Origin: a virus
Virus record (IMG/VR): IMGVR_UViG_3300037486_000321
Span: 1 to 64,000 of that record
Direction: 5' to 3' (one strand)
Length of the DNA: 64,000 nucleotides
Shown here: positions 15,683-64,000 of the stretch, in pieces
How the letters are laid out: the number at the start of each line of letters is the position of its first letter
Position numbering within the stretch: position 1 is the first letter of the stretch
Notes under the pieces: generated by a model
What the model was told of the DNA's origin: nothing
The model's input: only the letters and a program-made list of their open reading frames with translations
Databases searched by the model: none
Program-made: the position numbers and the translations under genes

Positions 15683-16090
15683 ATGGAACCCAATGATGTA
15701 GTAATTCGTTGGAAAGTTGTTTCCAGCCAAGCCTGGTATTGGGGTAAGAAGATTATGAAGCCAGGGCAGATATTCTCCGCCCCTGAAAGTGCTATTCCAA
15801 TTCAAAATCGGTTAGCGGTTATTCCTTTGGATACTATTCCTGATATTCCTGATACTTCAGAGAAGGAAATCCCTGCAACTATTCCTCCTCCAGAAGTGGA
15901 TTTATCAGCTGATAGACCAGTTGTATATCGCATGAAAGAACGGGAGGATAAGGATATGGAAATGGATGCAGAAGGACATATTATCAATCATGGTTCTTAC
16001 TATGATGTAATATCTTCTGAAGGAAAGGTTGTTAATGAACAACCATTAACCAGAGAGCAGGCAAAGTTAATGATTAAAAAACTAAAGTGA
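15683..16090 (+). CDS. small head-region protein, tandem paralogue B
   Basis: The 135-residue protein starts 3 bases after paralogue A. It shares VIRWK near the start, KIMKPGQIFSAPE in place of VIKPGETFLAYP, and SYYDVISSEGKVVNEQPL then a Lys-rich helix (AKLMIKKLK) at the end. It has a Pro/Asp/Glu-rich insert in the middle (about 50-95). The stop overlaps the start of the glycan-gene block. Function is unknown; a head-completion or decoration role is an inference from position. Confidence 0.6.
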   Translation: MEPNDVVIRWKVVSSQAWYWGKKIMKPGQIFSAPESAIPIQNRLAVIPLDTIPDIPDTSEKEIPATIPPPEVDLSADRPVVYRMKEREDKDMEMDAEGHIINHGSYYDVISSEGKVVNEQPLTREQAKLMIKKLK

Positions 16091-16815
16091 TGAACTGGGA
16101 GGTTCCACGTATATGGGAGGGAGGGGATGTTTGGATCCTTGGAGGAGGTCCATCGGTAACAAAGCAATTTGATATACCAGATGAACTTGTTCAAAATGTA
16201 ATGAACGGAATTTCTTCTCCCTCAGTATACTCTCCTTATATGGAAGCTATCCATAAGAAGCATGTCATTGCCATTAACGTTGCATACTTGATTGGAACTT
16301 GGATAGATATGGTTTTCTTTGGGGATAATAAGTTTTTCCTTCCCCACATGCATCAATTAGCAGCATGGCCAGGTTTGAAAGTATCTTGTCATGATGCGGC
16401 TAAAGGTTATGATTGGGTTAAGTTTCTTGGCAGAGATGGGAATCATCCAAAAGGAATAACCCCAAATCCGAATATGGTTGCTTGGAATGCCAATAGTGGA
16501 TCGGCTGCAATTAGCGTAGCTGCCAATGCGGGAGCAAAAAGAATTATACTGTTGGGATTTGACATGACCTTAAATGGAAATGGAGAGAAACATTGGCATA
16601 AACTTTATGCGGGAGAACCTACATCAGTGAAACCTGCTGGAAGAAGGGGAGTGCCAAGAGATCCAAGAAAATCTCTTCCTTTCCATAAACATCTTATAGG
16701 ATTCCCATATATTGCCCGTGATGCAAAGATTCGTGGGATTGAAATAATTAATGCCAGTCCTGATAGTGCAATTAAAGAATTTCCAAAAATGACAGTAAAG
16801 GAGCTATTGCAATGA
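16090..16815 (+). CDS. DUF115/MptE-like Rossmann protein
   Basis: First gene of a seven-gene coupled block, about 241 residues from ATG 16090 (a GTG three bases upstream is also possible). It has a nucleotide-binding-like loop (VWILGGGPSV, about 14-23), a strand-turn HVIAINVAYLIGTWIDMVFFGD, and GSAAISVAANAGAKRIILLGFDM at about 139-161. These are features of DUF115 proteins, related to MptE-like pyrophosphokinases and to flagellin-modifying Maf-type transferases. A role in making or transferring an activated sugar is likely, but the substrate cannot be read. The stop overlaps the next start as ATGA. Confidence 0.65.
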   Translation: MNWEVPRIWEGGDVWILGGGPSVTKQFDIPDELVQNVMNGISSPSVYSPYMEAIHKKHVIAINVAYLIGTWIDMVFFGDNKFFLPHMHQLAAWPGLKVSCHDAAKGYDWVKFLGRDGNHPKGITPNPNMVAWNANSGSAAISVAANAGAKRIILLGFDMTLNGNGEKHWHKLYAGEPTSVKPAGRRGVPRDPRKSLPFHKHLIGFPYIARDAKIRGIEIINASPDSAIKEFPKMTVKELLQ

Positions 16816-17468
16816 TGGTATTCATTATAAATTATAATCGTTTATTGTTGCCAGTGAAAATGGCAAAGTGGTGTTACCTATTTGGATTGGAACCAGTGTT
16901 TATAGATAACAATTCTGATTATCCTCCATTATTGGAATATTATAAGAATTGTCCTTATAGGGTAGTCCACTTTAATCAAAATCATGGGCACATGGTATTA
17001 TGGAATGGTAGTAATGATGTGCTTGATTTATTGGTAGGGAAGCATGCTCGTTATATTGTATCTGATCCTGATTTAAACTTAGAAGGTATTCCGGGAAACT
17101 TTCTTGATGTATTAAATGCAGGATTGGATAAGTTTCCACATATTGACAAATGTGGATTCTCACTTGAGATAAATGATTTACCTAATACAGAAGAAGGAAA
17201 TTATATCAGGACTCAAGTTGAACCAAGATATTGGAGAAAACGGTATGATAGTATGTATTATAACTCTCCAATAGATACCACTTTTGCTTTGTATCGGGAA
17301 GGAGTTCGTCATTATTCTCATACCGCAGTAAGAACAGAACGTCCTTACACCGCAAAGCATGTACCTTGGTATTACTCAGATTTGAGTAAGTTACCGGAGG
17401 ATGAACAATATTATTATCGTACAGCAAATATAAATAGTGCAACAGGAAAGAAAAGATTAGTGAAATGA
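16812..17468 (+). CDS. GT-A fold glycosyltransferase-like protein
   Basis: The 218-residue protein opens with a GT2-like strand (VFIINYNRLLLPV) and PVFIDNNSDYPPLLEYY. It carries a DxD-like SDPDL at about 79-83 (YIVSDPDLNLEGIP), the expected metal/nucleotide-sugar site. It is smaller than typical GT2 enzymes. Overlapping ATGA junctions on both sides imply coupled translation with the DUF115-like gene and the next transferase. It probably acts in the same glycan pathway; donor and acceptor are unknown. Confidence 0.65.
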   Translation: MMVFIINYNRLLLPVKMAKWCYLFGLEPVFIDNNSDYPPLLEYYKNCPYRVVHFNQNHGHMVLWNGSNDVLDLLVGKHARYIVSDPDLNLEGIPGNFLDVLNAGLDKFPHIDKCGFSLEINDLPNTEEGNYIRTQVEPRYWRKRYDSMYYNSPIDTTFALYREGVRHYSHTAVRTERPYTAKHVPWYYSDLSKLPEDEQYYYRTANINSATGKKRLVK

Positions 17469-18229
17469 AAATTATAATCGTAATGACATATTATGAACGA
17501 CAGTTCCAACTGACTAAGACTTTGGAATCTTTGAAAAAATCAGAGCACAAAGATTTTGAAGTGATTGTTGTGGATGATGCCAGTTATGATAATATTGTTC
17601 ATAATATAAAGGAATACCCGGTAACTGTAGTGAAGATGAAGAATAAGACATGGACTAATCCAGAACCAGCTTATAATATGGGATTACTACTGGCGATGGA
17701 ATCTAATCCTGATATTATTATTGTGCAGAATGCAGAGTGTTATCATGTAGGAGATGTTATTTCCTATGCCAAAAAGGTAACTGATTCTACATATTTTTCA
17801 TTTGGTTGTTTTAGTTTAGATCGGGAAAATACATTTAAAGAACATAATGTTTTTTACCTGGCTGATAAAAATAGGCGTAGAGCCAATTTTGATGGTGATC
17901 TTGCTTGGTATAATCACCCAGTGTACAGACCCAATGCCTTTGATTTTTGTATTGCCGTAACGGCAAAAAATATGAAGTTATTAAATGGGTACGATGAAAG
18001 ATTTAGTGATGGACATGCTTATGGAGACAATAATCTTATTGAAAGAGTGGGAGTACTTGGATTGCAAATCAAGATTCCTCTCGTTCCATTCGTAGTTCAT
18101 CAATGGCATTATGTTCATGCCCATCCGGCAGATTATATCAGATTGGAGGCAAAGAATAAACTTTTATTATTGGAAGCAAGGAAAGAAAATTCATATAGGG
18201 CAAAACATATTTACACAAAGGACTTATGA
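17465..18229 (+). CDS. family 2 glycosyltransferase
   Basis: The 254-residue protein has the canonical GT2 start (IIIVMTYYERQFQLTKTLESL), VIVVDDASYDN at about 35-45, NPEPAYNMGLLLAM, and GYDERFSDGHAYGDNNLIERV at about 175-195, where GT2 enzymes have the acceptor-site ED motif (here GD). There are no membrane segments, so it acts in the cytoplasm on a soluble or membrane-linked acceptor. It is coupled to both neighbours by ATGA overlaps. Confidence 0.8.
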   Translation: MKIIIVMTYYERQFQLTKTLESLKKSEHKDFEVIVVDDASYDNIVHNIKEYPVTVVKMKNKTWTNPEPAYNMGLLLAMESNPDIIIVQNAECYHVGDVISYAKKVTDSTYFSFGCFSLDRENTFKEHNVFYLADKNRRRANFDGDLAWYNHPVYRPNAFDFCIAVTAKNMKLLNGYDERFSDGHAYGDNNLIERVGVLGLQIKIPLVPFVVHQWHYVHAHPADYIRLEAKNKLLLLEARKENSYRAKHIYTKDL

Positions 18230-19338
18230 AAGTATTGCTTATAAATCCATGGCAGAGTGATGTGTTCCCTTCACCATCACTTGGGTATCTACAGGCTTCT
18301 TTGAAAGAAGCTGAGGTAGATGTCAAAGCCTGTGATTTAGATGAAGCAATGTTAGAAAAGGATGAATATGATCTGGTTGCAATTAGCTTTCATAGTTTCT
18401 CTGTTAGACATGCTATTACTTTAAGGAATAAATTTAAGAGCAGGATGATATGTGGAGGACATCATCCCTCAGCCCTTCCTGAGCAGATGTTATCCGTTGG
18501 ATATGATCAGGTGGTAGTAGGAGAAGGGGAGAGGGCGATCGTTGATGTAATCAAAGGAAATAAGGCTCAAATCATATATGGAGAAAGTAGTAATCTAAAT
18601 GATATTCCTTTTCCAGATTATACGGGGCTTAGTACAAGATTGGATTGGGGACTTCCAATAATTTCTTCCAGAGGTTGTCCATTTGATTGTACATTCTGTG
18701 CCTCGTCTAATTTTTGGCATAGGCAATGGAGGATGAGGTCAGCCGAGAATGTTTTGGATGAAATCATAGAGGGAGTGGTAAATAAGGGGTATAAAAATTT
18801 TATGTTTGAGGATGATAACTTTACAATGGGGAAGGATCGGGCAATTCAAATATGTAATGGACTTACAACTATTGGAGGATTATCTTGGCAATGTGCTAGT
18901 AGAGCAGAAACACTTGTTGATGATGAGTTATGTATTAATTTAAAGAGGGCTGGATGTCATACAGTATGGCTTGGTGTGGAATCATTATCTCAGGATAGTC
19001 TGGATCGTTGTAGTAAAAGAACAACTGTGGAGAAAATGCTAACGGGCATTGGAACAGCTCGTTCACATGGATTGAGAACCTTATCTCAGTTTATTGTAGG
19101 ATTGCCGGGAGATACTCGTAAGAATATTGAGGAAACAGTAAGAAATATAAGAACATATAGAATTGGTAATAGAGGGTCAAATATACTATGGATTCTTCCC
19201 AATACTGAAGCCCATAAAAAAGCTAAGGAGAAAGGATTTGATGATTCAACATATCTCAATGATGGTAATTTATTTTACACTTTTGAACAAGATATAAAAA
19301 CATTACAACTTTGGGCACATTTAATAAATGCAGCATGA
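18226..19338 (+). CDS. radical SAM enzyme with B12-binding domain
   Basis: The 370-residue protein has an N-terminal B12-binding-like Rossmann domain (residues 1-115: LLINPWQ, SPSLGYLQASLKEA, VVGEGERAI) and a radical SAM barrel with CPFDCTFC (Cys151, Cys155, Cys158), which binds the 4Fe-4S cluster. FEDDNFTMGKDRAIQIC and LGVESLSQDSLDRCSKRT are typical later blocks of the BchE/P-methylase-like group. The C-terminal region is short. It may methylate or rearrange a sugar or lipid precursor; the substrate is not deducible. It belongs to the coupled glycan block. Confidence 0.82.
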   Translation: MKVLLINPWQSDVFPSPSLGYLQASLKEAEVDVKACDLDEAMLEKDEYDLVAISFHSFSVRHAITLRNKFKSRMICGGHHPSALPEQMLSVGYDQVVVGEGERAIVDVIKGNKAQIIYGESSNLNDIPFPDYTGLSTRLDWGLPIISSRGCPFDCTFCASSNFWHRQWRMRSAENVLDEIIEGVVNKGYKNFMFEDDNFTMGKDRAIQICNGLTTIGGLSWQCASRAETLVDDELCINLKRAGCHTVWLGVESLSQDSLDRCSKRTTVEKMLTGIGTARSHGLRTLSQFIVGLPGDTRKNIEETVRNIRTYRIGNRGSNILWILPNTEAHKKAKEKGFDDSTYLNDGNLFYTFEQDIKTLQLWAHLINAA

Positions 19339-20228
19339 AAATATTAGTAACTGGTAGTGAAGGAAATATTGGAAAGGTACTTGTCCCTTACCTCAAGAGC
19401 AATGGGCATGTAGTATTCTGTATAGATATTCAACAGAAGTTTGAAGATGGATACCGAACTGTTGATATCAATAATGGAGCAGATATTATTAATGCCTTTT
19501 ATGAATTTCGTCCTGATGTGGTATTTCACATGGCTGCTATGGTTAGCAGAGTTACTTGTGAACATTCCCCTGTTACTACGATTAAGACAAATGTTTGTGG
19601 TACGGAGAATGTAATTCAATTGTGTAAGCAGGTGGATGCCAAACTTATTTTCTTTTCCACATCAGAGGTATATGGTAATATTGGGGGCAACCTTTCGGAA
19701 GCTCGTACTGATCTTAAACCAAACAATATTTATGGGCTAAGTAAATTGATGTCAGAACAGTTGGTAACATATGAAGTAGCTAATGGATTAAAGGCAATCA
19801 TTGTTCGTCCATTCATGTTTTATCATGAGGATGAGACCTTTGGAAATCATCGTTCAGCAATAATACGATTTGTTGTTTCTCTGCTTAAACATCAGAAAAT
19901 AACAGTTCATAATAGGAGTTACCGCTCTTGGATGCACCTTGATGATGCGGTAGTAGTCCTTGAAAAGTTATGTTATGTGGATCAATTTGTAACTATTAAT
20001 GTTGGGAATCCTGAGTTACATTTAATGGAGGTTGTGGCACATAAGATTTGCAGTAAAGTTGATCGTATATATGCTGATTATGTTATTGAAGAGGAGTTGC
20101 CAGAGAAGATGACTTTGACGAAAGTGGCAAATTTTACTTTACAAAAATTATTGACTGGATATGAGTGTGTGATATCACTGGATGAGGGAATTGATCGGGT
20201 AATTGAAAAGGTTAAGAAAAGATTATGA
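19335..20228 (+). CDS. NAD-dependent sugar epimerase/dehydratase (extended SDR)
   Basis: The start at ATG 19335 (ATGA overlap with the radical SAM stop) gives 297 residues. The Rossmann motif is TGSEGNIG (6-13). FHMAAMVSRVTCEHSP and the catalytic YGLSK (Tyr133, Lys137), with STSEVYG just before, complete the extended SDR pattern. Such enzymes epimerise, dehydrate or reduce nucleotide-activated sugars such as UDP-glucose. The C-terminal substrate region is of ordinary length. It provides a modified sugar donor for the neighbouring transferases, by inference. Confidence 0.83.
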   Translation: MKILVTGSEGNIGKVLVPYLKSNGHVVFCIDIQQKFEDGYRTVDINNGADIINAFYEFRPDVVFHMAAMVSRVTCEHSPVTTIKTNVCGTENVIQLCKQVDAKLIFFSTSEVYGNIGGNLSEARTDLKPNNIYGLSKLMSEQLVTYEVANGLKAIIVRPFMFYHEDETFGNHRSAIIRFVVSLLKHQKITVHNRSYRSWMHLDDAVVVLEKLCYVDQFVTINVGNPELHLMEVVAHKICSKVDRIYADYVIEEELPEKMTLTKVANFTLQKLLTGYECVISLDEGIDRVIEKVKKRL

Positions 20229-20932
20229 ATATTGCTATTATTACACCCACAGGAGGTCGTCCAAAGCAAATTCAGCTTTGTGCTGAGTTTATGCATAGGC
20301 AGGACTATGAAGGGAAAGTATTATGGGTAATTGTGGATGATGTCTTACCAGTTACGACTAAATTTATTTCCAATGAGTTTCGTGATAATTGGAAGGTATT
20401 AAAAATTTACCCACAAAAGAAGTGGATGCCCGGATTAAATACTCAGGCAAGTAATTTATTAAAAGGTATTGATATTATTGCGTTTTTTGAAGTTGATTAT
20501 GTTTTTATAATTGAGGATGATGATTATTATTCTCCACAATATTTGAGCGTAATGATGGAGAAGTTAAAAGGATGTGATGTAGCAGGACAAATGTACACAA
20601 TCTATTATGATGTTGTAAATAGGGGATGGATGAGGAATGGAAATGTTGGACACGCTAGTCTTTTCCAAGTAGCTTTTAGGTTAAGTGTGCTTGATACTTT
20701 CAAAGCTATCTGTACACAAAAAAATAAGTTTATTGATATGAGTTTCTTTAGAGCAATAAATCATAGAAAGGTTAATCTGTTTGATGGGCAGGATTTGGCA
20801 ATAGGTATTAAAGGACTTCCGGGTAGGGCTGGAATAGGAATGGGGCATAGGATGGATGTTAAGATGACCAGTGATGTAAATTTTGAGAAATTGAAAGAAT
20901 TAATTGGTGAAGATTATAAATATTACGAATGA
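20225..20932 (+). CDS. GT-A glycosyltransferase
   Basis: The 235-residue protein starts IAIITPTGGRPKQIQLCAEF like GT2 members. It has FIIEDDDYYSPQYL (about 97-110), with a DDD metal site, and NLFDGQDLAIGIKGLPG in the acceptor region. No membrane segments are seen. It is coupled by ATGA overlaps to the epimerase and the sulfotransferase genes. Confidence 0.75.
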   Translation: MNIAIITPTGGRPKQIQLCAEFMHRQDYEGKVLWVIVDDVLPVTTKFISNEFRDNWKVLKIYPQKKWMPGLNTQASNLLKGIDIIAFFEVDYVFIIEDDDYYSPQYLSVMMEKLKGCDVAGQMYTIYYDVVNRGWMRNGNVGHASLFQVAFRLSVLDTFKAICTQKNKFIDMSFFRAINHRKVNLFDGQDLAIGIKGLPGRAGIGMGHRMDVKMTSDVNFEKLKELIGEDYKYYE

Positions 20933-21594
20933 ACCAACCAATATTCATAACAGGGGTAGAGCGATCAGGTAGTTCCATGATAGCGAAGATATTTGATATC
21001 TGTGGAGTACACAAGGGAACAGTATCAACAATGTATGAGAATTTTGGAATGAACTTATTGATGGATGGATTTCTCAGTTCTAAGGTTGGTTTATTTCCTG
21101 ATATAAAAGGATTAAGTATTCCTATGGATTGGAATGCTAAAGTGTTGGAAATACTGGATCGGGAAGGATACAAGGATGGTTCGTGGATGTGTAAAAGTCC
21201 TAAACTGGGGCAAATGTGGCCAGTGTGGAATTATGCCTTTCCTAATGCCCGTTGGATTATTGTAAGAAGGAGAACGGGAGATATCATTGAGTCTTGTATA
21301 AAAACTGGATATATGACAATGTTTAAGGATACAAATAATTTAAAGCGGGTAGGAGCAGGGGATGAAGTAGAAGGGTGGAAATGGTGGGTTCATCAATATG
21401 AAAAACGATTTGTCACAATGATTGAAGCAGGAGTTAATTGTCGGATAGTGTGGCCAGAGAGAATGGTATGTGGTGATTATCAACAGATATATGAAACTCT
21501 GGAATGGTTAGGTTTGGAATGGAATAGTAAAATAGTAGAAACAATAGATCCAATGTTAATAAAAAGTAGGAGGAAAACAAAATGGCATGTTTAA
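20929..21594 (+). CDS. sulfotransferase
   Basis: The 221-residue protein has a PAPS-binding 5'-phosphosulfate loop (FITGVERSGSSMIAKIF, about 6-22), WMCKSPKLG (about 86-94) and the 3'-phosphate motif ARWIIVRRRTGDIIES (about 107-122). This is the order of PAPS-dependent sulfotransferases. It would place sulfate on a glycan or another small acceptor; neither the acceptor nor the PAPS source is encoded nearby. It is the last gene of the glycan block. Its 3' end contains the ribosome binding site (AGGAGGAAAACAAA) and first 13 bases of the next gene. Confidence 0.78.
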   Translation: MNQPIFITGVERSGSSMIAKIFDICGVHKGTVSTMYENFGMNLLMDGFLSSKVGLFPDIKGLSIPMDWNAKVLEILDREGYKDGSWMCKSPKLGQMWPVWNYAFPNARWIIVRRRTGDIIESCIKTGYMTMFKDTNNLKRVGAGDEVEGWKWWVHQYEKRFVTMIEAGVNCRIVWPERMVCGDYQQIYETLEWLGLEWNSKIVETIDPMLIKSRRKTKWHV

Positions 21595-58494: not shown

Positions 58495-59415
58495 TTATAT
58501 ATTATTTTTAGTTACGGCATAACAAGCATACACCAGTTGTGGAAATCCACTATCATAGAAAGGAGTAACAAAAGCCTCTAAAATTGCTCCACACACAGGT
58601 TCATCCTTTCCATTGGTTAAGACAGCTGAACAATACCCTAACACTGCCCTACGCACCCCCTCTACATCCTGATCTTTCAGTCCAACCAGAATCCCAGATA
58701 TTTGTTTCCAAGAAGCATTTTTAAGCAAGGCTCTACAAAGTTCTATGGATTGTACCACTTCAGCTTCTGCTTTCTTGGCCATAGTCATTCTGTTCTCCAT
58801 AGGTACAGTAAGCACCTGTTCCAGTATTTGCAAGGCATTACGTGGTAATCCACGGGCACTGGTTACTATCTGATTATAGATTTCATCAGTTAATTCCTCC
58901 CCTTCTTTCCTAGCTATATATCTCAGAAGTCCTTTCATCTGAGGATCACTCAATGGAAGCAACTGAAACTGTTGACACCTTCCCTTTATTGTACCTATAA
59001 GTTTTTGAGGCTCTGTGGTACAAAGAATGAAGTATACGTGTGGTGGAGTATCTTCCAGTATTTTTAATAGAGCGTTCTGAGCATCATTTGTCATCTTGTG
59101 ACACTCATCTATCAACCAAAGTCTCCTGTCTCCCTCAAGAGCTTTAAACCCACTGTTTTTACGAATATCTCTTATGGTGTCAATCCCTCGGAAGTCTGCT
59201 GAGTCAACTTCTATGAAATCACTGCCTTTGCATCCAAGTCTGGATGCAATAATACGACCTATTGTGGTTTTACCACAGCCAGTCATTCCATACAATAGAA
59301 AAACATGAGGGCAGGTTTCTGTGTGACTCAGCATACCTTCCAAGGTTGACAATACATCTGTATTACCTTTAACCTGAGATAAAGTAGAGGGACGATATTT
59401 TAGGTATAAGCTCAT
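58495..59415 (-). CDS. clamp-loader ATPase (DnaX gamma/tau-like)
   Basis: The 306-residue AAA+ protein begins LYLKYRPSTLSQVKGNTDVL, has Walker A GMTGCGKT (43-50), Walker B LIDECHKM (101-108), sensor 1 CTTEP (132-136), an RC-type finger (IKGRCQQFQLLPLS) and sensor 2 GLPRNALQILEQ. This is the DnaX/RfcS pattern. It would load a sliding clamp for the phage polymerase. No clamp gene is visible here. There is no long tau tail. Confidence 0.83.
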   Translation of the reverse strand: MSLYLKYRPSTLSQVKGNTDVLSTLEGMLSHTETCPHVFLLYGMTGCGKTTIGRIIASRLGCKGSDFIEVDSADFRGIDTIRDIRKNSGFKALEGDRRLWLIDECHKMTNDAQNALLKILEDTPPHVYFILCTTEPQKLIGTIKGRCQQFQLLPLSDPQMKGLLRYIARKEGEELTDEIYNQIVTSARGLPRNALQILEQVLTVPMENRMTMAKKAEAEVVQSIELCRALLKNASWKQISGILVGLKDQDVEGVRRAVLGYCSAVLTNGKDEPVCGAILEAFVTPFYDSGFPQLVYACYAVTKNNI

Positions 59416-59783: not shown

Positions 59784-61169
59784 TTAAATTTTTTTCTTAT
59801 CCACCCAACTTCCATCTACAGGACACACCTCTATATCCACATCTAATGGCACTATGATCCATTTCCAAGCTTCAGGTAATTTCTGACAAGTAATTCTTTT
59901 TATCAATGATATTGTAGTGTTTAATTCTGATGGTTCCACATCCAATAACATTGAGTCATGAATTTGCCCAATTAATCTGGTGTCCATATGTAAAGCTTGA
60001 AGATGTTTATTAACTTCAATAAAACTCCATAGTAAACAATGAAATGCCGCACCTTGAATTGGGTAATTACACACCTGTTTACTATCCATCACCCCTCCAC
60101 ACCTGAATCCAGTAAGTAAATCTATATATCCATATTTTTTATAAATAGAATACCAACGGTCTTTCCAATCTGAGTAATCTGAAAATCTTTTTTTCCAGAA
60201 ATCTCTTTCTATTTTCTCAATATGTTTTTCAAAAGCAGTTAATGACTTAATTCCTTTGCTGATAAGATGATCAGAAAGAGTTCCTTCAGGCATTGGTATT
60301 CCTTCTCCTTCCTTCCACCTATTTATAGATAATTTTCCCCACAGACATGCCATACTATAAGCACAGTTTTTATAGTAATCCCCATAGAATTCTGGGAATA
60401 CAAATCCATTCTTAGCTGCTTGCCGTAAAGTGGTATGTGATGGCTCTCCTTTGTCATATGTATCAAGCATAAATATTTGCTTTGCCATATCTCTGTGCAT
60501 ATCAGAAGTGGGATCATTAATATACTTTAGCATAGTTGGATCTTTGTGATAACATGCCCCTATACGTACTTCTAATCCACTATAATCAACTTCCAAAAGT
60601 TGATGTCCAGGACGGGGGTATAATGCTCTGCGTACAATTTTCATTGCTTCTTCATCCCTCTTAGGAATATTCTGGAAATTAGGGTGGTCAGAACTGGAGC
60701 GAAAGGTTTGCACAAGATGAAGATTAAAAAAAGGATGAATGTACCCATTGACTTGTTCCCTAATGAATGCTTCAAGGTAGGTATCTCTTATTTTCTTTAA
60801 TTTACGGATTTCCAGCAAGGTATGTAACTCTGGAATGTCTATTCTTTTTAAAGTTTCATCATCAGTAGCTCCCTGTCCTGAGGCAGTTTCTTTTTCAATT
60901 TTTATTTTCTTTATCTTATATAGAAATATGGATAACTGAGTATTGGAATTGATATTGACAGATTTTCCCATAGCATATTCCCAATGTTTAAAGAACTTGG
61001 TTTGTTTAAATTGTTTTTCCAAGGAATCTATTCTATGGGTAAGTTGAAATTTTTTATTATTTACATAATCCGTATCTATCCGCATCCCTGCTTGTTCAGC
61101 ATGAGATAGGGCTAAAATCCCATTATGTAGTAATTGGTAAGCCTCATATGTTTTAGCTTTCACAATCAT
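59784..61169 (-). CDS. family A DNA polymerase, polymerase domain only
   Basis: The 461-residue protein holds thumb, palm and fingers of a PolA enzyme: SSDHPNFQNIPKR (159-171), motif A EVDYSGLEVRIG (193-204), motif B RQAAKNGFVFPEFYG (249-263) and motif C GQIHDSMLLDV (401-411). The last has HDS where cellular PolA has HDE. There is no exonuclease domain; this part is encoded 2.1 kb upstream as a separate gene. The starts of this and the glycosyltransferase gene overlap. It should copy the phage genome together with the exonuclease protein. Confidence 0.87.
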   Translation of the reverse strand: MIVKAKTYEAYQLLHNGILALSHAEQAGMRIDTDYVNNKKFQLTHRIDSLEKQFKQTKFFKHWEYAMGKSVNINSNTQLSIFLYKIKKIKIEKETASGQGATDDETLKRIDIPELHTLLEIRKLKKIRDTYLEAFIREQVNGYIHPFFNLHLVQTFRSSSDHPNFQNIPKRDEEAMKIVRRALYPRPGHQLLEVDYSGLEVRIGACYHKDPTMLKYINDPTSDMHRDMAKQIFMLDTYDKGEPSHTTLRQAAKNGFVFPEFYGDYYKNCAYSMACLWGKLSINRWKEGEGIPMPEGTLSDHLISKGIKSLTAFEKHIEKIERDFWKKRFSDYSDWKDRWYSIYKKYGYIDLLTGFRCGGVMDSKQVCNYPIQGAAFHCLLWSFIEVNKHLQALHMDTRLIGQIHDSMLLDVEPSELNTTISLIKRITCQKLPEAWKWIIVPLDVDIEVCPVDGSWVDKKKI

Positions 61170-62046
61170 TTTGTATATCTTTTAAATCTTTCAATATCAT
61201 TCCGTAATTATTTACTCCTTTGTGGATAACTACACCTGATTTCCTTATCAATTTATTGTGTTTAAAAGGTCTGTAATCTACTTGATGTTGCCAACGTCCC
61301 CACTTCCATGTTATATCTGTCAGCTTAGGATGACGTTCTTTCAGAGTTTGTGCCATTTTCAATCTCCCATTCTCTATCAGATACAATTCTTCAGTATTCC
61401 CTCCCTTTACTGTCATAGTAGTGCTTTTCTCCTGTAGAAAAGCATAAAATAATATAGTACACCATCTATCTTTTAAAACTCTTATACTGAGGTCTGTGTC
61501 TTCATTGTACCGTCCTCTCCAATGATAAGGTATTTTGTTCAGTATTAGTATACAGGAATAAATGCGGGTATTCAGTACAAATGCTGGGTAATACTGCCTT
61601 CTCAGAGCAAAAAAATCATATTGAAATCCAGCTAATGCTACATTTTCATACCGATCCACAAAGTCTTCCGCAGCTCTAAATATATTTCCTGATGTTACAT
61701 GGGAATGTAGGTTATTATTTAACCTCAGAAATCCAGATATATTATCATCTAATACCCAATGCCGTTTTGATCCTAAAGTCATAGAATGATCCCAACAGAA
61801 ATTTCTTGCGGGACCTGAACCTTTGCTTTTACTATTTCCAAGATTATCACATACATCATACTCATCCTGATACTTTTTAGGTAAAACTAATATCTTGTTA
61901 GGGGGTATTACTGCGGCATATTTTTTGTATTCCTGCTCCTCTACCACTATGTGATAAGGTACTTTCATGCTTTCAAAACATTTACTTGTCAACCGTGATT
62001 CCCAACGTCCCTTGGATACTACGTATACTGGGTATTTTGGATTCAT
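61153..62046 (-). CDS. TET-associated-type glycosyltransferase (TAGT/GREB1-like)
   Basis: The 297-residue protein has YPVYVVSKGRWESRLTSKC (5-23), YHIVVEEQEYKKYA, GSGPARNFCWDHSM and RHWVLDDNISGFLRLN (95-110). This series is that of the glycosyltransferases named for their link with TET/JBP in phages, which are thought to decorate oxidised bases in DNA. The DD of VLDDN would bind metal and nucleotide sugar. The first 65 bases overlap the radical SAM gene and cannot be trimmed without losing the SKGR motif. It lies between the polymerase halves. Confidence 0.75.
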   Translation of the reverse strand: MNPKYPVYVVSKGRWESRLTSKCFESMKVPYHIVVEEQEYKKYAAVIPPNKILVLPKKYQDEYDVCDNLGNSKSKGSGPARNFCWDHSMTLGSKRHWVLDDNISGFLRLNNNLHSHVTSGNIFRAAEDFVDRYENVALAGFQYDFFALRRQYYPAFVLNTRIYSCILILNKIPYHWRGRYNEDTDLSIRVLKDRWCTILFYAFLQEKSTTMTVKGGNTEELYLIENGRLKMAQTLKERHPKLTDITWKWGRWQHQVDYRPFKHNKLIRKSGVVIHKGVNNYGMILKDLKDIQNDCES

Positions 62047-63001
62047 ATGGAGGCATTTTTACAAATTTTTCACCATCATAGTATTTACCTACTTGCTCAT
62101 CAGTCCAATGTTTAAAATCACAACGGGAGAATGTTATACAACAACGAGAACAGTATGAAGTATCTGCTCTATTTTTCAACCGCAACCTTCTTCGTATAGT
62201 TTGTAATTCTTTACCAAACCAATATTTTAAAAATCCATTAATTCCCCCCTCATTTACTGAGCCAAACACTCCTGCAGTTTCTCCCCAATTATCTTGACAA
62301 CAAAGTAGATAACTTCCAGATACATGAACTGGAACATAAAGAAATGGTTGATTGCAACGTCTTGTTAATGGCTTTGTGACAGGGTATAATCCATATTTAC
62401 GAGCTTTACCCCAATTCAAATGATTATACCAAGTACCTAATAATCCAGCATGATAGCGTGATTTTGGCCAATTATCTGGCTGTTCTTGTAATACTATCAT
62501 TTTTATATCTGGTCCCCAGTAAGTCCACGGGCTTTTTTTCTTCTCTTTGTTATCATAATACTCATACCATTCATATCCTGACTCTTTTGCTAGTTTAATG
62601 TGCAATTCCTTTGGGGCATACATATCTACATAGAGAATGTTTACTCCTGCCTCAAACAATTCCTTATAAGTTAGTTTTCCATTAGAGATCATAGTACCAT
62701 TTGTAGTAATCTGAATTTGCCCAAGTGGATTTATTTTACGGGCAATTGATAAAAATTCAAGCAAATCAGGATGTAAAGTTGGTTCTCCTGAGATACATAA
62801 ATCAATCCTGCAAGTGGGAGATATTTCCTTTAAAATATTAAAACAGTTTATCCAAGTTTTCTTTGACATAAAGGATATATCATTAGGTGCATCTAATGCA
62901 TGAGAGCAGTGACCACAACGCAAATTACAACCATGTACGGGTTCAATTGCCCAAACCCATGGAGTTAATTCATTTAGTGGTTTTATCCTTTTTATCTTCA
63001 T
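61982..63001 (-). CDS. radical SAM / SPASM-type enzyme
   Basis: The 339-residue protein has CNLRCGHC (Cys25, Cys29, Cys32), GEPTLHPDLLEFL, ITTNGTM and a C-terminal Cys cluster (SYLLCCQDNWG, YCSRCCITFSRC), as in SPASM-type auxiliary cluster regions. It would generate a radical on a substrate that could be a peptide, sugar or base. Its overlap with the TAGT-like gene and the small upstream gene suggests a common pathway. DNA-base modification is the guess that best fits the context. Confidence 0.8.
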   Translation of the reverse strand: MKIKRIKPLNELTPWVWAIEPVHGCNLRCGHCSHALDAPNDISFMSKKTWINCFNILKEISPTCRIDLCISGEPTLHPDLLEFLSIARKINPLGQIQITTNGTMISNGKLTYKELFEAGVNILYVDMYAPKELHIKLAKESGYEWYEYYDNKEKKKSPWTYWGPDIKMIVLQEQPDNWPKSRYHAGLLGTWYNHLNWGKARKYGLYPVTKPLTRRCNQPFLYVPVHVSGSYLLCCQDNWGETAGVFGSVNEGGINGFLKYWFGKELQTIRRRLRLKNRADTSYCSRCCITFSRCDFKHWTDEQVGKYYDGEKFVKMPPYESKIPSIRSIQGTLGITVDK

Positions 63002-63272
63002 TTTTTATTACATCTACATAATCTACATATACTTTATTTCTGCGTACAATCTGTACTTTTGGGTACCATATAAACTTTGCCCTTTTACTTATTGTTTGGC
63101 TCATCAATTTTGCAAACCTCCGCACTCCTTCTTCATCACGAAAATGTACCAGAATAGAACGGTAAGGAGTCAGGTCTTTCTGACTGAATTCAGGCATTCC
63201 CTGCCATTCCTTTCTCCATGACTTGAAATTTTCCAAATCCCCAAACAAAGTTTCTTTAGGTTCTTTTGCCAT
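62970..63272 (-). CDS. small conserved phage protein near modification genes
   Basis: The 100-residue protein contains MPEFSQKDLTPYRSILVHFR, then DEEGVRRFAKLMSQTISKRA and FIWYPK. I recall this motif from many phage proteins encoded beside radical SAM or other base-modification-type genes, but no function is known to me. The end overlaps the radical SAM gene by 32 bases. Confidence 0.6.
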   Translation of the reverse strand: MAKEPKETLFGDLENFKSWRKEWQGMPEFSQKDLTPYRSILVHFRDEEGVRRFAKLMSQTISKRAKFIWYPKVQIVRRNKVYVDYVDVIKNEDKKDKTTK

Positions 63273-63274
63273 GA

Positions 63275-64000
63275 TTAAAATGGTAATATAAGTTCTCTTT
63301 GTAATTTAGATAATCTGTATTCAAAGATAGAATCCAATGCACAATACTTCAGTAATTTATCTTTCCCCTGTTTATCATTAACCAATTCCATAATCCTGTT
63401 TATACTATTTGCACTGGTTTCATCCACAGATTGAAGATATGATTCTACTTCAGAAGAATAATCCACCACACCAAACTGAGTATATACTTGAAACTTTAAA
63501 CCAGTAACCCCTGGTTGGTTATCAAGGATGTGAGCAGCCAACATAGTATCCCATATCCAATTGTTTACGGATTGTTTTAGCCTTACCACACTCCATGATT
63601 CCTCAAACTTCATATTCTGTGCTATTTTTCCTATTTGTGGATTGGCTAACAGGTTTACAAAAGGTTTACGTTCTTCTCTGCTGTGTGGCATCATAAAAAC
63701 ATAAACATGGTCAGGACTATCAGCTACAGAGCAACAAACAATCCTGTGTCCTACGGCATGAGGTTTTTTGCCTGTGGTTTCATAATCAAAGGCTATTTCT
63801 CCTTTTATTCCATTCAATACGGATAAATCTTCTATTATGTCTATCTTAGGTTCTTTATATTGTGGAAAAGGAATACCTATCATTCCAATAGCCTGTTTTA
63901 AGTCCTGTTTCCATATGGTTTCCTCTACCCCTTCCTCTGATCTCTCAATATAACTAGGGTGAAATGTAGGACAAATCCACGACTTCAAATCCTGATCAGG
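63275..64000 (-). CDS. DNA polymerase 3'-5' exonuclease gene (cut by window edge)
   Basis: The frame is open to the right edge, so the start is missing. The visible 241 residues include WICPTFHPSYIER near the edge, which resembles the C-terminal 'HPS' block of uracil-DNA glycosylase-like domains fused to phage polymerases. The DnaQ/PolA exonuclease domain follows: Exo I FDYETTG, Exo II KIAQNMKFEE and Exo III YCALDS (Tyr and Asp spaced YxxxD). The gene ends before any polymerase motif. It is the proofreading partner of the polymerase at 59784-61169. Confidence 0.83.
   Translation of the reverse strand, partial: PDQDLKSWICPTFHPSYIERSEEGVEETIWKQDLKQAIGMIGIPFPQYKEPKIDIIEDLSVLNGIKGEIAFDYETTGKKPHAVGHRIVCCSVADSPDHVYVFMMPHSREERKPFVNLLANPQIGKIAQNMKFEESWSVVRLKQSVNNWIWDTMLAAHILDNQPGVTGLKFQVYTQFGVVDYSSEVESYLQSVDETSANSINRIMELVNDKQGKDKLLKYCALDSIFEYRLSKLQRELILPF

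Follow-up and report, generated by a model that had tools for sequence, protein, structure and literature searches.

The window analysed here comprises bases 1-64000 of the 70,138-bp uncultured virus record IMGVR_UViG_3300037486_000321. Near its right-hand end, on the minus strand, the phage's family A DNA polymerase (PolA) is encoded by two genes, one for an exonuclease and one for the polymerase domain, separated by 2.1 kb that hold three further genes. The features of this region are the following (E, E value of the profile match).

59784-61169, minus strand: stand-alone family A polymerase domain, 461 aa (PF00476, E 5.1e-48)
61153-62046, minus strand: TAGT-family glycosyltransferase, 297 aa (PF20691, E 2.7e-44, over cut-off)
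61982-63001, minus strand: radical SAM/SPASM enzyme, 339 aa (PF04055, E 4.7e-13; PF13186, E 8.1e-5)
62970-63272, minus strand: SMALL, 100 aa, conserved partner of TAGT (in 86/90 TAGT loci; fused in Aeh1 p093)
63275-64000, minus strand: 3' part of a gene for a uracil-DNA glycosylase (UDG) plus 3'-5' exonuclease (PF03167, E 1.4e-21; PF01612, E 7.8e-10)
58495-59415, minus strand: clamp loader ATPase, part of this replication module (phrog_5846, E 8.9e-68)

A preliminary description of this region, made from the letters of the window, gave correct coordinates, and profile matches bear out the three genes that it placed between exonuclease and polymerase (a small protein, a radical SAM/SPASM enzyme and a TAGT-like glycosyltransferase), as they do its observation that the exonuclease protein lacks any polymerase motif and that the polymerase is a gene of its own. 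Hidden from it was the UDG domain (PF03167) at the N-terminal end of the exonuclease protein, which lies beyond the window edge: the gene has its stop codon at 63275 and its start at record position 64492, and encodes 405 aa in total. Read along the minus strand, the module runs from an N4/N6-type DNA methyltransferase through a clamp-like processivity factor and another N4/N6-type DNA methyltransferase to the UDG-exonuclease, and continues with SMALL, radical SAM/SPASM, TAGT, the polymerase, a 98-aa protein and the clamp loader.

Both parts of the polymerase score well above their profile cut-offs (PF00476, 164 bits vs 34.3; PF01612, 39.3 bits vs 23.6), and AlphaFold models built on alignments of relatives were confident for the two chains (predicted local distance difference test scores, pLDDT, of 88 and 91). 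In these predicted structures, residues 213-404 of the exonuclease chain superpose on Klenow residues 324-518 (Z 20), and residues 1-459 of the polymerase chain on Klenow 514-928 (Z 28.0, root-mean-square deviation 2.9 over 346 residues). The models place the break at Klenow 514-518, that is, at the boundary of the exonuclease and polymerase domains to within a few residues, which is also about where the Klenow fragment was cut in the laboratory to give a separate polymerase domain. The earlier statement that the polymerase protein starts in the thumb is close to correct: its first residues are those with which the polymerase domain opens.

Split and fused relatives (79 two-gene forms, 12 one-gene forms) alike conserve the motif residues of the two parts, apart from a few exceptions and gaps; the loss of key residues in related phages, which would have spoken against the preliminary description, is not the pattern observed. 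Polymerase residues R157, D195, E200, R249, K253 and Y262 are invariant across the split (79) and the fused (12) forms, and H404/D405 are found in 79/79 split and 11 fused forms, the remaining fused form having a gap. The DEDDy-type exonuclease residues D236, E238, Y383 and D387 are likewise kept. The claim that all catalytic residues had been retained holds in that the motifs of both parts are present; it fails at the Exo II acidic position (Klenow D424), where Asp is replaced by Glu across the whole family, one-gene forms included. Compared with the nearest relative (L004), the UDG-exonuclease has a pN/pS of 0.22 and the polymerase one of 0.17, values that indicate purifying selection on both parts. 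The modelled UDG domain resembles family 4 and UdgX structures (Z 24), and C24, C27, C97 and C117, the predicted ligands of an iron-sulphur cluster, are invariant in the alignment. Since the domain reaches 94.4 bits on NCBIfam TIGR00758, below the curated cut-off of 125.3, we label it family-4-like only.

Searches of viral contigs yielded 91 non-identical related pairs, the window's own counted, of which 79 have the two-gene form and 12 the one-gene form. Among the 78 split pairs in which the gap could be measured, the two genes lie within 150 bp of each other in 38; such closely spaced genes often overlap, many by 4-20 bp, or sit 2-60 bp apart. In a quick LG+G4 tree built on exonuclease plus polymerase, with distant, long-branch outgroups, the one-gene forms are scattered over about five positions among the two-gene forms, and the approximately unbiased (AU) test rejects a single grouping both for all fused forms of the clade (p 3e-4) and for all split forms (p 4e-4). 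A split ancestor requires five fusions, a fused ancestor with fission only requires 18 fissions, and the linkers of the fused forms range from 7 to 18 residues and vary in sequence as well, which fits separate joinings. Comparison of the relatives thus shows the two-gene state to be old in this clade of uncultured phages, and the split to be much older than the three genes that now separate its halves in the window. Parsimony favours an ancestor with two genes and subsequent re-fusions; given so quick a tree and such distant outgroups, we regard this direction as likely, short of proof. The alternative is an ancestral single gene whose hinge was cut many times by frameshifts, stop codons or insertions, a course that is mutationally easy in that one indel suffices, and that would agree with the mostly one-gene state of distant relatives and with the short overlaps of many split pairs. 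Set against the 18 fissions that it needs and against linkers that vary as independent joinings would, we hold repeated fission to be unlikely.

As to how the two proteins may work, the polymerase chain, which holds all that is needed for synthesis, would extend the DNA, while the UDG-exonuclease chain would proofread 3' ends and perhaps detect or excise uracil; the phage clamp and clamp loader of the same module could keep both chains on the DNA. Family knowledge and gene neighbourhood make reassembly of both chains into a single proofreading enzyme the most likely course, because the neighbourhood is constant, ancestry is shared with one-chain forms and both parts are conserved. Alternatively, the proteins might act apart, as a polymerase without proofreading and a separate repair enzyme. 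Each part is predicted to be a complete fold, and ExnV1, a stand-alone viral exonuclease that probably represents part of a PolA, is both soluble and folded (PMC9629493), as separate action would permit. The pair nevertheless keeps its order and orientation across related loci and was joined into one chain in about five lineages, and the parts of the split polymerase of Aeromonas phage 25 co-purify (PMC2988022), so that independent action appears improbable. Co-divergence of exonuclease and polymerase had been considered as evidence of contact and was dropped: their distance correlation (0.77) is not above that of clamp and polymerase (0.78), and shows only joint inheritance of the module, with no specific support for contact, a result that separate action would also accommodate.

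The preliminary description had attributed the split to insertion of SMALL, radical SAM and TAGT into the hinge of a one-gene polymerase. The cassette does sit exactly at the domain boundary and one-gene relatives do exist, as that explanation would have it; the proposed comparison with uninterrupted polymerases brought these 12 forms to light, together with a two-gene state that is mostly free of the cassette. In the outer relatives L007, L008, L009 and L011, as in many others, the two genes are separate and the junction is empty. In the nearest relative (L004; polymerase 82% identical) the genes are 51 bp apart, and L005, a separate contig, has the identical junction. These 51 bp open with ACC-ATGGCAAA, the start of SMALL, and then run into the 3' end of the TAGT gene, to which 30/34 bp are identical (alignment score 48; the best of 1000 shuffles scored 35). 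In the TAGT frame none of the four differences changes an amino acid (GGA/GGT, TAC/TAT, GGA/GGG, TTG/TTA), which implies that TAGT was intact and under selection when the two lineages parted and was deleted later. This remnant indicates that the last common ancestor with the nearest relative carried the three-gene set, which the lineage of that relative then lost by deletion, probably through recombination at the short repeat CAAAG. The loss gave back no single gene, the polymerase of this relative being still split. With sister and outer lineages split and bearing neither cassette nor scar, and with the cassette found at other junctions in other phages, insertion as the cause of the split is very improbable; on the tree, cassette-free split relatives surround the window's lineage, and we regard the proposal as already refuted by these sequence comparisons. 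This is a case in which gene neighbourhood on its own would mislead about cause.

The cargo of the junction varies by lineage and comprises another radical SAM family (L014, L021, L025), C5-type DNA methyltransferases (L031, L070, L073), an N4/N6 methyltransferase (L024), GIY-YIG (L031/L032), PAPS reductase (L059), MazG (L076) and many unknown genes. The cassette genes for their part occur elsewhere in the module, in the orders clamp-SMALL-TAGT-exonuclease-polymerase (L089), SMALL-TAGT-radical SAM-exonuclease-polymerase (L251), radical SAM-TAGT-clamp-exonuclease-polymerase (L252) and radical SAM-clamp-SMALL-TAGT-exonuclease-polymerase (L249). The comparison of loci indicates that the junction repeatedly gains and loses unrelated genes and that the three-gene set is one passenger among them. 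Insertion is common across the replication module and, by raw counts, commoner at the split: gaps of more than 150 bp are found at 40/78 exonuclease-polymerase junctions versus 21/67 clamp-exonuclease junctions. A split core gene thereby serves as a carrier site for exchangeable genes, many of them of DNA-modification types.

Taken together, these results lead us to propose, with considerable confidence, a two-gene PolA that is cut at the domain boundary, in which the split is old, the junction swaps its cargo and the chains most likely reassemble. The following points weigh against this proposal: (i) the tree was inferred quickly under LG+G4 with long outgroups, and repeated fission from a fused ancestor may apply if fission is much easier than fusion; (ii) the records are metagenomic and may be incomplete; (iii) the exonuclease-polymerase distance correlation does not exceed that of clamp and polymerase. 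Proofreading by family A enzymes is usually pictured as DNA moving between two sites of a single chain. More tentatively, we suggest that a large phage clade may use a two-subunit family A polymerase, with the UDG-exonuclease separate like the epsilon subunit of Pol III and with about five switches between one and two chains. If so, these switches would be built-in evolutionary experiments on the purpose of joining the domains, and a split clade beside close fused relatives would allow a direct test of what covalent linkage contributes to fidelity and processivity.

Turning to the passenger genes, SMALL usually adjoins or overlaps the start of TAGT in the loci where both occur, whereas in the window the radical SAM gene is placed between them. 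SMALL corresponds to the N-terminal domain of the Aeh1 TAGT protein p093 (i-Evalue 2.4e-20), is fused to TAGT also in seven viral contigs, and is marked by the motifs W, MPEF, F, F, Q and WxP; no Pfam, PHROG or NCBIfam family was found for it. TAGT scores 152 bits on PF20691 (cut-off 27.5), and no solved structure near it was found by sequence. A radical SAM N-terminal part without SPASM is joined in frame to a TAGT that lacks its first ~43 residues at L254:5001-6320 (also in L255 and L256), and two tandem TAGT copies occur in L187, L204, L212, L213, L216 and L239. No counterpart of the radical SAM enzyme was found in isolated phages. Relatives occur in Aeromonas phages, where they are annotated as HMC-glucosyltransferases, which makes a role in DNA modification plausible. 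The earlier name of modification cassette is nonetheless a prediction only: a search run without a positive control found no TET/JBP dioxygenase in the record or in 20 further records, most of them TAGT-bearing, and the record likewise yielded no thymidylate-synthase-type gene; genes of these two types would supply a hydroxymethylated base.

The preliminary description had held that a second complete polymerase gene would speak against it; none was found in the 70,138-bp record, where no second PF00476 or PF01612 match and no PolB or PolIIIalpha match was detected, and 20/20 related records tested have a single PolA place. A polymerase split by an intron was rejected, as Rfam gave no match to a group I intron at E 0.1 across 11 kb around the break. 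So was a split by a homing endonuclease of the T4 gp43 type, since GIY-YIG, HNH and LAGLIDADG profiles are all without a match in the window's three inserted genes and the polymerase is of family A, not B. No intein was seen in the window genes; one relative (L147:6330-8816) has an 828-aa polymerase open reading frame with a likely intein at the RTFRS motif, beside a conserved Arg. That an assembly or sequencing error makes one gene appear as two is scarcely credible, for all that the assembly is metagenomic and short overlaps occur in some split pairs, given 2.1 kb of intact genes between the parts in the window, 79 non-identical split pairs, identical junctions in the two contigs L004 and L005, and a likewise split annotated circular genome (MW202554).

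Elsewhere in the record, the two N4/N6-type DNA methyltransferases that flank the clamp gene just beyond the window (L003:5490-6275 and L003:7322-8017) are related (57% identical). Sugar-related-looking genes, resembling glycosyltransferases, an epimerase and a sulfotransferase by their open reading frames, lie among structural genes at 16087-21594, and the same run holds a B12-type radical SAM-like protein, recognized in the same way. The search for a host gave a single 56% match among genome contigs, on a 4.4-kb Thermoplasmata-binned contig that is possibly viral, and no host is assigned.

No earlier description of a two-gene PolA of this kind was found in the open-licence literature searched. 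Closest in domain content are the SPO1-type UDG-exonuclease-PolA proteins of Lysinibacillus phage LysYB1, Manatee Spring phage ctfzr933 and other annotated phages, which have the same three domains in the same order in a single gene, whereas in the window phage they are divided over two genes, with the break between exonuclease and polymerase. An annotated circular genome, that of Podoviridae sp. ctLwi270 (MW202554), has UDG-exonuclease and polymerase as separate neighbours, both annotated 'DNA polymerase'; it is distant (on a very long branch), with ~150 bp between the genes and no cassette. Akin to the present case, the gp43 of Aeromonas phages 25 and 44RR is a phage replicative polymerase in two chains, and in phage 25 the co-purifying parts are active (PMC2988022). 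These enzymes belong to family B, however, and their split is tied to a seg homing endonuclease or an untranslated spacer, the mobile gene having possibly entered a gene already split (PMC2988022). In the OM43 phages MEP401/402, a family A PolA lies in two open reading frames with a small one between them (PMC10580990), but there the polymerase domain itself is interrupted, an intron is suspected by the authors, and no UDG part is reported. A split phage polymerase as such is therefore already known; what is added here is a two-gene PolA of a large uncultured clade, divided where the two domains meet, in which the split is ancient and has probably been undone by fusion several times.

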